Source: Nitrospirota bacterium (GTDB lineage Bacteria; Nitrospirota; Thermodesulfovibrionia; Thermodesulfovibrionales; UBA6898). Taken from it: 64,000 nucleotides of DNA. Under the pieces are notes generated by a model, which did not search any database, had not been told where the DNA came from, and was given only the letters and a program-made list of their open reading frames with translations. Positions 52,587 through 57,537 of this stretch are shown here, in pieces. Where the stretch lies: positions 124,001 through 188,000 of the forward strand of contig JACRMT010000012.1 in the NCBI GenBank assembly GCA_016214855.1. Reading direction: 5' to 3'. Position 1 is the first letter of the stretch, and each line of letters opens with the position of its first letter. Made by a program: the position numbers and the translations under genes.

Positions 52587-53630
52587 ATGCTTTTTAGAAT
52601 TCTGAAACATGAAGACCTGAAAAAGCTGTATGATCTGCTGTCCAGGGGGAATCGGGTTATCGGACCGGTCAGGAAAGGGGCTGACAAAGACGGCAACCCC
52701 ATATATGCCTTTGAAGAGATAGGTGATTTCATCAATATTCATCTGGATTACACCACAACAAAAATACCTGCAAAGAAGTTCTTTATGCCTTTTAGAGAAG
52801 TTATGGCTGACTTCCGGATCAAAGGGAAAGACTGGGAGAAGAAGATCGGATTCAATATCGGCAGCCCCTTCATTGTCTTCGGTATGCATGCCTGTGACAT
52901 AAATGCCCTGAACAAGCTCGACAAAGTTCTGCTCGGGAGCCACTATCCCATGCCGTATTATGCGGCAAAACGGAAGAACATGTTCATCGTGGGTATTGAC
53001 TGCATACCCCAGCCATATTGTTTCTGCCGCTCCATGGGCTCAGATACGGCACTGCATGGATTCGACATGTTCCTGACAGACCTTGGTGACCACTACTTTG
53101 TCGAAATACTTTCTGATACTGCATACAATTTTCTCCGGCAGATCACTAATGCGGAGCCTACAGAAAGCGATCATGCCCGCTATATGAAGGCCGCATCGGA
53201 AAAGAACAGGAAGTTTACTGCTCATGTAGATACAACTGACCTTACCAAAATTCTGGATATGGAATTCCAGGCAGATGTCTGGAAGAAATGGGGCGATCAG
53301 TGCCTGTCCTGCGGCACCTGTGCGAATGTCTGCCCGACCTGCTACTGCTATGGCGTAGATGAGTCTGTGGCACTTGATCTCTCACGGGCGCAAAAGATCA
53401 AATCCCTCTACTCCTGCAATCTGATCGATTTCGCTGAGGTTGCCGGCGGACATAATTTCAGACCTGAGAGTCACACACGGCTCAAATACCGTTACTACCA
53501 CAAGCACCGCGGTTTTGTTGAAGCGTATGAGGAATCTCTCTGCGTTGGCTGCGGCAGATGCGGAGAATCCTGCCTTGCAGGCATTACGGTCCCGGAAGTC
53601 ATTGCGAGCGTCAGGGGCGGGGAAAACTGA
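52587..53630 (+). CDS. hydB: [NiFe] hydrogenase (group 3b type) beta subunit, Fe-S protein
   Basis: 347-aa electron-transfer subunit, homologous to sulfhydrogenase beta and anaerobic sulfite reductase A. Two [4Fe-4S] motifs near the C-terminus: CLSCGTCANVCPTCYC and CVGCGRCGESC. Upstream of them FIVFGMHACDINALNKLDKV with an extra Cys. GAGGGAAGG precedes the ATG. First of four genes in the order beta-gamma-delta-alpha, the layout of NAD(P)-linked cytoplasmic group 3b hydrogenases, which may evolve or oxidise H2 and in some species reduce sulfur. Confidence 0.9.
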   Translation: MLFRILKHEDLKKLYDLLSRGNRVIGPVRKGADKDGNPIYAFEEIGDFINIHLDYTTTKIPAKKFFMPFREVMADFRIKGKDWEKKIGFNIGSPFIVFGMHACDINALNKLDKVLLGSHYPMPYYAAKRKNMFIVGIDCIPQPYCFCRSMGSDTALHGFDMFLTDLGDHYFVEILSDTAYNFLRQITNAEPTESDHARYMKAASEKNRKFTAHVDTTDLTKILDMEFQADVWKKWGDQCLSCGTCANVCPTCYCYGVDESVALDLSRAQKIKSLYSCNLIDFAEVAGGHNFRPESHTRLKYRYYHKHRGFVEAYEESLCVGCGRCGESCLAGITVPEVIASVRGGEN

Positions 53631-53631
53631 T

Positions 53632-54540
53632 ATGAGCAGCCAGATCAAATTCACGGATATTACAGCCGGTCAGCAGCGGCGGCATTTTCGCGAGAACGAC
53701 CTTGGAGCCTTTGAGAACACCTATAAGGCCGAGATCACTGCAGTACACAGACTTACCGCAATCGAGAATCTCTTCAGGATCCAGATCGTCGACCCGACAG
53801 ACAGAAAGAAGTTTGTTTTCCAGCCGGGCCAATTCGTAATGCTGGAACTGCCGGGTATCGGTGAGGCGCCCTTCTCGATCTCCTCCTCTGCCTCACGGCA
53901 TGGAGATCTTGAACTCTGCATACGCAGGGTCGGAAGCCTGACCAATTTTCTTTTCAGGCTTGACCGCGGCACGCACGTTGGCATACGCGGCCCTTTCGGC
54001 ACCGGTTTCCCGATGGATCAGATGCATGGAGAAAATATTCTCCTCATAGCCGGAGGCCTCGGTCTTGCTCCTCTGCGTTCGCCGATAGCCTATGTGCAGG
54101 AAAACAGGAACCTGTTCGATAATGTTGATATTATTTATGGAACAAAGGAACCCTCCCAGCTCCTGTTCACCTATCAGTATGATATGTGGCGTGCTGATGA
54201 CGTGAACCTTCATATTATTGTCGAAAAAGGCGATCCAGCCTGGAAAGGGCCTGTCGGCATGATAACCAAAGTACTCCAGGATATTTTCATGCATAGGCAT
54301 GCAGACTACTTTCAGAAGACCTATGCTATTGTCTGCGGCCCTCCGGTCATGTTCAAATTTGTCTGCACCATGCTGAATGAGCGGAGTATCCCTATGGAGA
54401 AGATGTTCGTTTCCCTTGAGCGGAGGATGCACTGCGGCATGGCAAAATGCTGCCGCTGCAATATCGGCTCAACGTACATCTGCCTTAAGGGCCCTGTCTT
54501 TGACTACTGGTCGGTCATGAACATGAAGGAGGCCATCTGA
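53632..54540 (+). CDS. hydG: [NiFe] hydrogenase (group 3b type) gamma subunit, FAD/NAD(P)-binding
   Basis: 302-aa flavoprotein linking the enzyme to NAD(P)H. FAD-binding domain (FVFQPGQFVMLELPGIGEAPFSISSS), NAD(P)-binding LLIAGGLGLAPLRSPI and CGPPVMFKFVC, and a C-terminal [2Fe-2S] site CGMAKCCRCNIGSTYIC. The ATG at 53632 begins one base after the hydB stop. Its stop overlaps hydD (TGATG). NAD versus NADP preference is not clear. Confidence 0.92.
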   Translation: MSSQIKFTDITAGQQRRHFRENDLGAFENTYKAEITAVHRLTAIENLFRIQIVDPTDRKKFVFQPGQFVMLELPGIGEAPFSISSSASRHGDLELCIRRVGSLTNFLFRLDRGTHVGIRGPFGTGFPMDQMHGENILLIAGGLGLAPLRSPIAYVQENRNLFDNVDIIYGTKEPSQLLFTYQYDMWRADDVNLHIIVEKGDPAWKGPVGMITKVLQDIFMHRHADYFQKTYAIVCGPPVMFKFVCTMLNERSIPMEKMFVSLERRMHCGMAKCCRCNIGSTYICLKGPVFDYWSVMNMKEAI

Positions 54541-55340
54541 TGGCCGGGACAACTCACAACCAGAAGAATTTTCTTGGCGTTCCGGTTGCAAAGCCACGGG
54601 TCGCCTTCTTCGAGCTCTCTTCCTGCGAAGGCTGCCAGCTCCAGATATTAAACAACGAGGCAACGCTCCTCGATTTCCTTTCCCTGGTGCAGGTGGTCAA
54701 TTTCCGCGAGGCAATGACAGAAAAGTCCGACGACTATGATATTGCCTTTGTCGAGGGAAGCATAACAAGAAAGGATGAGGTGGAGAGGCTCAGAAATATC
54801 AGGCAGAATGCCAGGGTCCTTGTTGCGCTTGGGTCCTGCGCATGTTTTGGGGGTATAAACCAGCTCAAGAACCGTTTTGATCCTGACTGGGTAAAGCGTA
54901 AGGTGTACGGAAACTCACCTGTCGATACTGACAAGGCCCAACCCCTTGAGGAGTTCGTGCATATAAACCTCAGGATCTATGGCTGTCCTGTCAGAAAAGA
55001 AGAAGTCGAAAGGATCGTGACGAATCTGGTCATCGGCAAGGAGATTCATCATCCGCGGTACCCGGTATGCATGGAATGCAAGGCTAACGAAAATGTCTGC
55101 CTTTTTGACCTTGGTGAGCCCTGCCTGGGGCCTGTCACCAGGGCTGGCTGTGATTCGTGGTGTCCGAACAGCAGGGCCGGCTGCTGGGGCTGCCGCGGAC
55201 CTGCAGATGAAGCCAATATGGAACAGATGAGGAAGATTATGGCAGAGAAGGGATTCTCTGAGGAAACCCTGATCGACCGCCTTGAATGCTTTGGCGGGTT
55301 CAAAGACAGTGTTGATAGGATCAGGAAAGGTCAACCATGA
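54540..55340 (+). CDS. hydD: [NiFe] hydrogenase (group 3b type) small (delta) subunit
   Basis: 266-aa subunit with three Fe-S clusters that carries electrons between the Ni-Fe site and the beta/gamma subunits. Proximal cluster: ELSSCEGCQLQ, ALGSCACFGGI and IYGCPV. Other clusters: PVCMECKANENVCL, GEPCLGPVTRAGCDSWCPN and AGCWGCRGP. No Tat signal, so cytoplasmic, as expected for group 3. Overlaps hydG by one base and hydA by four. Confidence 0.93.
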   Translation: MAGTTHNQKNFLGVPVAKPRVAFFELSSCEGCQLQILNNEATLLDFLSLVQVVNFREAMTEKSDDYDIAFVEGSITRKDEVERLRNIRQNARVLVALGSCACFGGINQLKNRFDPDWVKRKVYGNSPVDTDKAQPLEEFVHINLRIYGCPVRKEEVERIVTNLVIGKEIHHPRYPVCMECKANENVCLFDLGEPCLGPVTRAGCDSWCPNSRAGCWGCRGPADEANMEQMRKIMAEKGFSEETLIDRLECFGGFKDSVDRIRKGQP

Positions 55341-56611
55341 AGCTCACCTGCAAGGTGGATGTGCATCACCTTTCCCGGGTCGAGGGGCACGGGAATATAA
55401 CGATACGCATACAGGATGGAAAACTTGAGGAAGCGCGATGGGAGGTCGTTGAGACGCCCCGCTTCTTCGAAGCCTTCCTCATCGGCAAGAAGTGGGACAA
55501 TGCGCCCTGGATCTGCGGAAGGATCTGCGGCATCTGCTCAATAGGCCACACGCTTGCGAGCATACGGGCCGTTGAAAATGCCTTTGGCATAGAGCCGACA
55601 GAGCAGACGCGAAAATTGCGGCTGCTGCTCAAACATATGGAAACCCTTCAGAGCCATATCCTTCACCTCTATTTTCTCGCAGCGCCTGATTTTGCAAATG
55701 TGGGAAGCGTATTTCCGCTTATTGAGACAGCACCTGATATCGTGGCAAGGGCGGCAAGGATCAAGCTCCTCGCAAACGATATCTGTGACTGTATCGGCGG
55801 ACGCCGCATGCATCCTACCAGGACGATCGTCGGAGGGTTCACCCTGCTGCCGACAAAGGATGAACTCCGCGGCCACAGGGACCGCCTGAAAGAAGTGATG
55901 GATGATCTGGTAAAGACAGCTGACCTCTTCAGGTCGTTCACCCTGCCGGATTTTATACGAGAGACGGAGTTTGTGTCGCTCAAGGGTAGCGGGCAGTACC
56001 CCTTTATCGGCGGCGACCTTGTTTCGACCGACGGTGTCCAGAAAAGGGAGCAGGACTATCGTGAGATGACCAATGAATACATTGTAGAACAGTCAACATC
56101 AAAGTGGTCGCGACTGTCCCGCAAATCCTTTGCCGTGGGGGCACTGGCGCGACTGAACAATAACTTCGAGCTTCTTCACGAATGGGCGAGAGAGATCTCG
56201 CTCAGTTTCGGGCTCCAGCCTGTGAACCACAATCCGTACATGAACAATATGGCCCAGCTTGTTGAGGCCGTTCATGTAGCTGCGGAATCGATCGATATGA
56301 TCGATGAGCTTCTTGATTCGGAATTCTCGGAGCCGAGACAGCCTGTCGCGGCAAGGGCAGGTATTGGCGTTGGCGCTGTTGAGGTCCCAAGAGGGATCCT
56401 CTATCACAGCTACGAATTCGATGACACAGGGCATATTATCAATTGCGACTGCGTCATCCCTACCAGCCAGAATCATGCGAACATTCAGCACGATCTTCAG
56501 GAACTTGCGGAGCATTATGCAAAAAAAGGGAGGAAGGACCGGGATATTGAACTGCTGGCCCAGATGCTCGTCAGGGCCTATGACCCCTGCATCTCCTGCT
56601 CAGTACACTGA
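55337..56611 (+). CDS. hydA: [NiFe] hydrogenase (group 3b type) large (alpha) subunit
   Basis: 424-aa catalytic subunit. Nickel/iron ligands: RICGICSIGHT near residue 55-65 and DPCISCSVH at the extreme C-terminus. L1-type signature RVEGHGNITIRI at the start. Odd: the coding region stops directly after the His of DPCxxCxxH. Most large subunits carry a few more residues (VVRL in the Pyrococcus enzyme, as I recall) that a specific protease removes after nickel insertion. Here no such peptide exists, and no hydrogenase protease gene is nearby. The frame and stop TGA are clear. Confidence 0.93.
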   Translation: MKLTCKVDVHHLSRVEGHGNITIRIQDGKLEEARWEVVETPRFFEAFLIGKKWDNAPWICGRICGICSIGHTLASIRAVENAFGIEPTEQTRKLRLLLKHMETLQSHILHLYFLAAPDFANVGSVFPLIETAPDIVARAARIKLLANDICDCIGGRRMHPTRTIVGGFTLLPTKDELRGHRDRLKEVMDDLVKTADLFRSFTLPDFIRETEFVSLKGSGQYPFIGGDLVSTDGVQKREQDYREMTNEYIVEQSTSKWSRLSRKSFAVGALARLNNNFELLHEWAREISLSFGLQPVNHNPYMNNMAQLVEAVHVAAESIDMIDELLDSEFSEPRQPVAARAGIGVGAVEVPRGILYHSYEFDDTGHIINCDCVIPTSQNHANIQHDLQELAEHYAKKGRKDRDIELLAQMLVRAYDPCISCSVH

Positions 56612-56616
56612 AAAGG

Positions 56617-57537
56617 CTATTGTTTTTCCGGTTGAGCCTGTGCAGCCTGTTCTTTCATCTGCTTTTCTCTTTCAGCAAGCACTTTCTCTTTGGCCTTCTT
56701 CCTGGCGTCTTCCCGCACCTTGAAGTCACCTTCCCCATAAAGGGTGAATCTGAGCCATGAGAGAGAGAATTTCAGCAGTTCCAGTTCATCCTGCTTCAAC
56801 TTTTCTATCACTTCAGGCTCTATTTCGTAGGCATCGAGGAACCTGCTTTCAAAAACAAATTTCCTGAAGGCATCAAGGTTGGTGCTTACCATGAAAAACA
56901 GGTCCAGAGACTTCTGGCTGAACTCTACCATGCCGAGGGTCTTTGCCTTCAGAACGATCTCCATCCAGTCATCATTTACCGCGTCGTAAACATCAGAACC
57001 CTGGTCAGCCCGCCATTCGTCGATCGTCCATTCCTTGTCTTCGTTATGTCCGAGGCAATGATCTTCCCTGATCTTTATGAAAAAATTGGTGCCTGTATTC
57101 TTATCGAAGTGCTTCATTATCCCCATGCCTATCGGATAATAACGGCAGGTAAGAGGACGGTCCTCATAAACCGTGCAGCCCTCTGCTGTCACAAAGGGAC
57201 ATGACCTGTTTTCGTCGTCCTTCAGCCTCATGATCGCAACAGGGAGTTGAGACCTGTCGATCACTGTCTGATGCGTATGGGTGAGGAGAAACTCGTCGTA
57301 CGTCATCCCGAGCCGTTTTTTCAGTCTGTAGATATCATAGGGAGACAGGAATATCTTTATCCCGCTGCAGCATTTGGTAAAACATCCGATGCCAGGATAG
57401 CAACGAAACCTTATTTTTGATTCACCGGTCAGATATTCCGGCACAATGACGCTTTTTTCGATCCGGCCCTCAATCTCACGCTTGATCTCGTTAACCGCAC
57501 TATTATCAGTATTACTGGAACTGTCGTTGTTTGCCAT
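56617..57537 (-). CDS. YkgJ-family cysteine cluster protein
   Basis: 306-aa protein with the zinc- or iron-binding PF03692 domain: YPGIGCFTKCCSGIKIFLSPYDIYRLKK, then SCPFVTAEGCTVYEDRPLTCRYYPIGMGI. The Cys pattern CxxxCC ... C ... C ... C is complete. Long variant with about 120 extra residues on the C-terminal side ending in a Lys/Glu/Gln-rich coil (KAKEKVLAEREKQMKEQAAQ). YkgJ proteins are often near flagella or methylation genes; role unknown. Convergent, 5 nt after hydA. Confidence 0.82.
   Translation of the reverse strand: MANNDSSSNTDNSAVNEIKREIEGRIEKSVIVPEYLTGESKIRFRCYPGIGCFTKCCSGIKIFLSPYDIYRLKKRLGMTYDEFLLTHTHQTVIDRSQLPVAIMRLKDDENRSCPFVTAEGCTVYEDRPLTCRYYPIGMGIMKHFDKNTGTNFFIKIREDHCLGHNEDKEWTIDEWRADQGSDVYDAVNDDWMEIVLKAKTLGMVEFSQKSLDLFFMVSTNLDAFRKFVFESRFLDAYEIEPEVIEKLKQDELELLKFSLSWLRFTLYGEGDFKVREDARKKAKEKVLAEREKQMKEQAAQAQPEKQ

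Follow-up and report, generated by a model that had tools for sequence, protein, structure and literature searches.

A group 3b-type [NiFe] hydrogenase large subunit without a C-terminal tail and its probable maturation without a protease

The window (the whole analysed stretch of 64,000 nucleotides from a Nitrospirota bacterium) encodes a [NiFe] hydrogenase whose large (alpha) subunit stops at the histidine behind which its tailed relatives carry a C-terminal peptide. All readable members of its clade, here called clade A, end at the same residue. From the sequence comparisons given below, clade A very probably undergoes Hyp-dependent maturation without a proteolytic step, its C-terminal assembly peptide having been lost. 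The maturation protease families are HycI, HyaD, HybD and FrxA.

Results and Discussion

The operon and its class

The subunit is encoded by the last gene of a four-gene operon of the sulfhydrogenase type, beta-gamma-delta-alpha, at 52587-56611 on the + strand:

52587..53630, + strand: beta subunit, HydB/ShyB/AsrA-like 4Fe-4S protein (NCBIfam ShyB 264 bits and HydB 230 bits, both below cut-off; Pfam Fer4_22)
53632..54540, + strand: gamma subunit, FAD/NAD(P)-binding, HydG/ShyC/AsrB-like (NCBIfam PRK08345 273 bits, ShyC 225 bits; Pfam NAD_binding_1, FAD_binding_6)
54540..55340, + strand: delta (small) subunit, HydD/ShyD-like (NCBIfam HydD 185 bits; Pfam Oxidored_q6)
55337..56611, + strand: alpha (large) subunit, 424 residues, tail-less (frame; NCBIfam, Pfam and structure matches)
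55520..55537, + strand: first metal-binding motif of alpha, RICGIC, residues 62-67, with Cys64 and Cys67 as ligands by family (invariant in alignments A1 and A2)
56582..56608, + strand: second metal-binding motif and C-terminus, DPCISCSVH, with Cys418 and Cys421 as ligands and His424 as the final residue (all three invariant)
56609..56611, + strand: TGA stop where a tail would be (sequence; variety of stops in the clade; tails of relatives)

The gamma start at 53632 is the first ATG after beta; the family scans ran from 53623. The beta, gamma and delta genes recur as neighbours of alpha in the loci of its relatives. The gene after alpha (56617-57537, opposite strand) encodes a CxxCxxCC-domain protein and no protease.

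In a phmmer search against solved structures, alpha matched 5yxy with 271 bits and 9e15 with 255 bits, the next match being a methyl-viologen-reducing hydrogenase with 181 bits. The AlphaFold2 model of alpha (pLDDT 92) is nearest to the alpha chain of P. furiosus SHI (Z 51.5, rmsd 2.1, 413 residues), and ranks 1-3 of the structure comparison are all SHI. Alpha falls under the NCBIfam equivalog cut-offs for HydA and ShyA (278.8 versus 880 and 249.4 versus 700 bits); since two tailed relatives, L056 and L097, fall under them as well, these models are narrower than group 3b. Read from its nearest structures, alpha would belong to a cytosolic, NAD(P)-linked [NiFe] hydrogenase of the group 3b type and would be its catalytic subunit. 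Its nearest solved relatives do not belong to the H2-sensing group 2b, and its partners are beta, gamma and delta, not a histidine kinase. The likeness to regulatory hydrogenases drawn in the earlier note on this DNA therefore extends to the absence of a tail but not to the operon, which is a full beta-gamma-delta-alpha set of the NAD(P) type.

The C-terminus of alpha

The earlier note had read the end of alpha as DPCISCSVH with no removable peptide, and the frame bears this out: positions 56582-56611 of the + strand read GAC CCC TGC ATC TCC TGC TCA GTA CAC TGA. The cleavable tail after DPCxxCxxH, which is a usual but not a defining trait of group 3b, is absent, and the reading frame terminates with the His that follows the last CxxC, as in naturally tail-less large subunits. 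The match to the NCBIfam sulfhydrogenase alpha models ends four positions early (422 of 426 and 411 of 415), and the solved alpha chains of T. kodakarensis and P. furiosus (428 residues) align to the same His and continue for four residues beyond it; these four residues are thus the tail. Most tailed relatives carry tails of 4-15 residues. All four Cys ligands of alpha are invariant in alignments A1 and A2, as are many of the Arg, Asp, Glu and His residues around them. A separately encoded second motif, as in VhuU, was rejected, alpha itself containing both CxxC motifs.

The tail of HyhL, the group 3b enzyme of T. kodakarensis, pushes the N-terminus out of place, which then extends to HypA (PMC7294309, excerpt). 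In structural alignment, the model of alpha starts at residue 4 against mature SHI and at residue 18 against HypA-bound HyhL, and these starts fit a mature-like N-terminus. Structure prediction tends toward the mature state. Little weight was given to the modelled N-terminus because of this tendency and because residues 422-424 have a pLDDT below 50. In most rows of clade A the Met nearest upstream of the RVEG motif is found 13 residues ahead of it, and the clade would appear to keep a normal N-terminus.

Two clades of tail-less large subunits

A scan of the phylum found a relative of alpha at E <= 1e-60 in 184 of 395 genomes. From these genomes 108 homologues were fetched, many more distant ones being left out, and the C-termini of 106 were readable. 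All 42 readable members of clade A (66-100% identity) end at the same His, all 14 of a second group, clade B (35-40% identity), end in DPCFSCSVH or DPCLSCSVH, and the remaining 50 are tailed. The earlier statement that other group 3b enzymes carry a short tail is correct. Among the best 80 of 553 relatives in named genomes, 36 end at the His, 43 are tailed and one is frameshifted; the clade A loci among them number 37, of which the 36 end at the His and the 37th is the frameshifted one. Altogether, 73 of 73 non-duplicate clade A rows (50-100% identity) end at His424. Their records are labelled Nitrospirota, Desulfobulbia, Myxococcota, Acidobacteriota, Planctomycetota, Chlorobiaceae and, for one MAG, Spirochaetia; since most are MAGs, single records may be misbinned. 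These C-terminal calls rest on in-frame reading. The tail-less end is not an oddity of one protein: it is the norm of its clade, an outcome that the earlier note had named as refuting its reading, and a clade-defining trait across several phyla.

One of the tailed homologues, L162 (Anaerolineales), has Gln instead of His at the cleavage site (CSVQ followed by VMDIEDIE), with a protease-like gene downstream.

Trees were built with the tail and the motif excluded from the data. The 178-row tree, which left out L012 and L084 (both truncated at contig ends), L140 (frameshifted), L118 (another family) and seven duplicate-genome loci, has clade A (73 rows) and clade B (14 rows) each as one clade, and parsimony on it gives two changes of tail state. 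In a 51-row tree, both clades receive 100/100 support; clade A lies within a tailed clade C, and clade B beside a tailed clade D. A single tail-less clade of A and B is rejected on this tree (p-AU 0.0008), so the tail was lost at least twice. Tail and protease are widespread among other hydrogenase groups, and for this reason, with an unrooted tree whose only distant outgroup has a very long branch, the changes are read as losses and not as gains.

Four alignment columns are common to clades A and B and rare in both tailed clades; the remaining discordant pairings give 0, 1 and 1 such columns. A looser cut gives 7 against 1, 4 and 2. The thresholds were chosen by us, and L112 was also left out of this count. 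Substitutions common to A and B and mostly absent in their nearest tailed relatives are Arg77, Leu111, Glu238 and the Val before the last His (Val423). Such convergent columns are suggestive only. They touch on a wider idea that we put forward tentatively and hold to be possible, though short of probable: two group 3b lineages may have dropped peptide and protease independently, the closing of the fold and the proofreading having moved into the protein itself, and some hosts may since have lost HycI entirely. If true, tail-free and protease-free maturation would be an evolvable route in catalytic hydrogenases and not a peculiarity of sensors.

Distribution of the HycI-type protease

The earlier note had suggested a search of the genome for proteases of a HycI or HypD type. 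HypD is a cofactor-assembly protein; two HycI-type (PF01750) genes are present, each adjoining another, tailed hydrogenase. That on contig C4 accompanies a NiFeSe-type hydrogenase with the tail VLDKNRNEIVKVKAV, and that on C15 a hydrogenase with a tail of 26 residues. No PF01750 gene was found on C12, the contig of the tail-less operon. At the C4 locus (G000:C4:771608-773146; L001, L266), the family match of the NiFeSe-type hydrogenase spans an in-frame TGA, and the protease gene and a hypC-like gene follow.

Immediately downstream of alpha, 49 of 91 tailed loci have a protease-like ORF. None of the 66 clade A loci has one there, a count that still takes in as many as five loci from duplicate genomes, nor does any of the 14 clade B loci. 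The Fisher test, with relatedness ignored, gives 1e-15 for tailed loci versus A and 7e-5 for tailed loci versus B. Genome-wide, PF01750 is present in 61 of 75 clade A genomes and absent in 14, absence meaning that no family match was obtained and most of these genomes being fragmented MAGs. It is likewise absent in 4 of 15 clade B genomes, a set in which G329, with one subunit of clade B and one that is tailed, was counted, and in 1 of the 49 genomes that carry tailed relatives.

The protease-less clade A genomes include G251, G138 (100% complete), G186 (99%), G180 (96%) and the single-chromosome G413. Every large-subunit C-terminus read in the 14 is tail-less. Clade A provides the sole large subunit above the PF00374 cut-off in 11 of them; G398 and G399 have further large subunits, which are tail-less too, and G084 has one further borderline match, whose C-terminus was unread. 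Among the protease-less clade B genomes, a tail-less subunit is the only one in G124 (100% complete), in G213 and in G379, where the copy is cut by the contig end. In G104, a clade B congener, there is a tailed hydrogenase in addition, and the protease is present.

Tail and detectable protease do not coincide in every case. In genus g65, both genomes (G313, 95% complete, and G389, 80%; both fragmented) have tailed large subunits, one type of which ends in CIKM, and gave no PF01750 match; either assembly gaps or an unrecognised protease would account for this. A protease unrelated to PF01750 could also exist in the protease-less genomes. Protease-independent maturation, which the earlier note had proposed, is nonetheless the reading that the 14 clade A genomes without HycI appear to favour.

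Hyp machinery and proposed maturation

Of the 14 protease-less clade A genomes, 11 have HypD and 10 have HypA; the four with a completeness of 90% or more have both. G180 has hypC-A-B-F-D-E in one cluster, with hypA shortened by a TAG near its end; G413 has hypF-D-E at one place and hypA-hypB at another, hypB being named by eye. Cofactor synthesis and nickel delivery are thus kept where the protease is not. The case for protease-free maturation is built from genomic counts, namely those of downstream ORFs, of PF01750 across genomes and of Hyp genes.

We propose that alpha would receive Fe(CN)2CO from HypCDEF and nickel from HypA and HypB by the ordinary route, HypA docking to its N-terminus. 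Once nickel is in, the C-terminus, already mature, would close by itself around the metal; no cleavage would be needed, because the translated end is already the processed end. The closed alpha would then bind the delta subunit. Proofreading, which is normally the task of the nickel-gated protease, would have to come from elsewhere, for example from a small subunit that accepts only a loaded large subunit, as has been proposed for tail-less regulatory hydrogenases (PMC7294309, excerpt). In E. coli Hyd-2 and R. eutropha SH, maturation suffered when the tail was removed by engineering (PMC7294309, excerpts), so that losing it carries a cost in at least some enzymes.

Alternative explanations

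A tail might be hidden behind the stop if the TGA of alpha were read through or recoded as selenocysteine. The stop is indeed TGA, and the genome makes a selenoprotein-type hydrogenase, that of C4 with its in-frame TGA. However, the 73 clade A rows end at this point by TGA in 37 cases, TAG in 18 and TAA in 18, and the in-frame sequence past the stop differs even between relatives of the same genus. The variety of stops, with nothing conserved behind them, rules out selenocysteine and read-through, and a hidden tail, being already contradicted, has next to no chance of being correct. The same variety rules out a local sequencing error as well, the possibility that the earlier note had attached to this stop; the identical end throughout the clade speaks against such an error too.

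The tail-less clade might instead still depend on a protease of the HycI type, one that acts as a chaperone or checkpoint and is borrowed from the other hydrogenases of the cell. This would suit the 61 clade A genomes with a PF01750 gene, and binding of a protease to a large subunit lacking the peptide has been reported (PMC7654741, excerpt); it is unlikely in view of the 14 genomes in which no such gene was matched, among them the near-complete ones named above. In G299 and G421, clade A is seemingly the sole hydrogenase and yet HycI is present; there it lies near a contig start, and its own partner has probably been cut off. Less likely still is that the clade A enzyme is a sensor or scaffold, not a working hydrogenase, for which full maturation would be unneeded. 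Many known tail-less large subunits are sensors (PMC7294309, excerpt), and a protein of about 350 residues that looks GAF-like by eye is often encoded upstream in the operons of clade B. Against this stand the invariance of the four Cys ligands and of many residues near them, the Fe-S and FAD/NAD(P) subunits kept in the operon, and the Hyp genes kept in the best-assembled genomes where clade A is the sole large subunit. Hyp-dependent maturation of a catalytic enzyme without cleavage is therefore the reading preferred here.

The upstream protein of clade B (L082:9838-10896, - strand; L096:2380-3423, + strand; similar in other clade B loci) lies directly upstream of beta, and it may regulate or sense.

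Comparison with known systems

The closest known enzymes are P. furiosus SHI (alpha chain in 9nez, 9e15 and 9nf0) and T. kodakarensis HyhL (5yxy and 5yy0, Z 45.5). They share with alpha the fold, a full-length sequence match and the four-gene operon plan. They differ from it in the four-residue tail after the His and in the first motif, which is RICSFC in both and RICGIC here. The T. kodakarensis enzyme is matured by a protease (PMC7654741, excerpt), whereas alpha has no tail.

Natural tail-less large subunits were listed by Hartmann et al. for groups 2b, 2d, 4c, 4e and 4g, and the part of that article consulted names no group 3 enzyme among them (PMC7294309). Tail-less sensory and Ech enzymes are also given by Pinske et al. 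(PMC6769069, excerpt), and CODH-linked ones are added in an excerpt of PMC7654741. In those groups, as in clade A, the translated end equals the processed end and the Hyp machinery is presumably normal; they are sensors, CODH-linked or Ech enzymes, in contrast to the cytosolic NAD(P)-type operon described here. R. eutropha MBH with its tail removed by engineering likewise has a NiFe site without a C-terminal extension and is active, with a lower yield (PMC7294309, excerpt); here the loss is natural, occurs in two clades and is accompanied in some genomes by loss of the protease. No report of a tail-less group 3 hydrogenase was found in the literature searched, partly in excerpts and with subscription papers mostly outside the search, which makes this weak evidence of novelty.

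The role of the C-terminal extension and a possible function of the protease beyond cleavage are questions raised in PMC6769069, PMC7294309 and PMC7654741 (excerpts). Two natural losses in one enzyme class, with close tailed relatives and HycI-free hosts, offer ready-made comparisons for them. A tail-less NAD(P)-linked hydrogenase would also lend itself to expression in foreign hosts, as its maturation would take one gene fewer.

Two records of Desulfobulbia/Deltaproteobacteria contain a different tail-less large subunit of 503 residues, ending in DPCLACAVH or DPCIACAVH (L254:1895-5972 in G399; L255:2878-6475 in G398). In the HydDB table, a chemotactic class stands only among the [FeFe] enzymes (C2; PMC5037454, excerpt). 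At both loci the large-subunit gene is followed first by that of a small subunit, whose start is twin-arginine-like, and next by a gene for a methyl-accepting chemotaxis protein (PF00015); the set is possibly an H2 chemoreceptor built on a [NiFe] hydrogenase.
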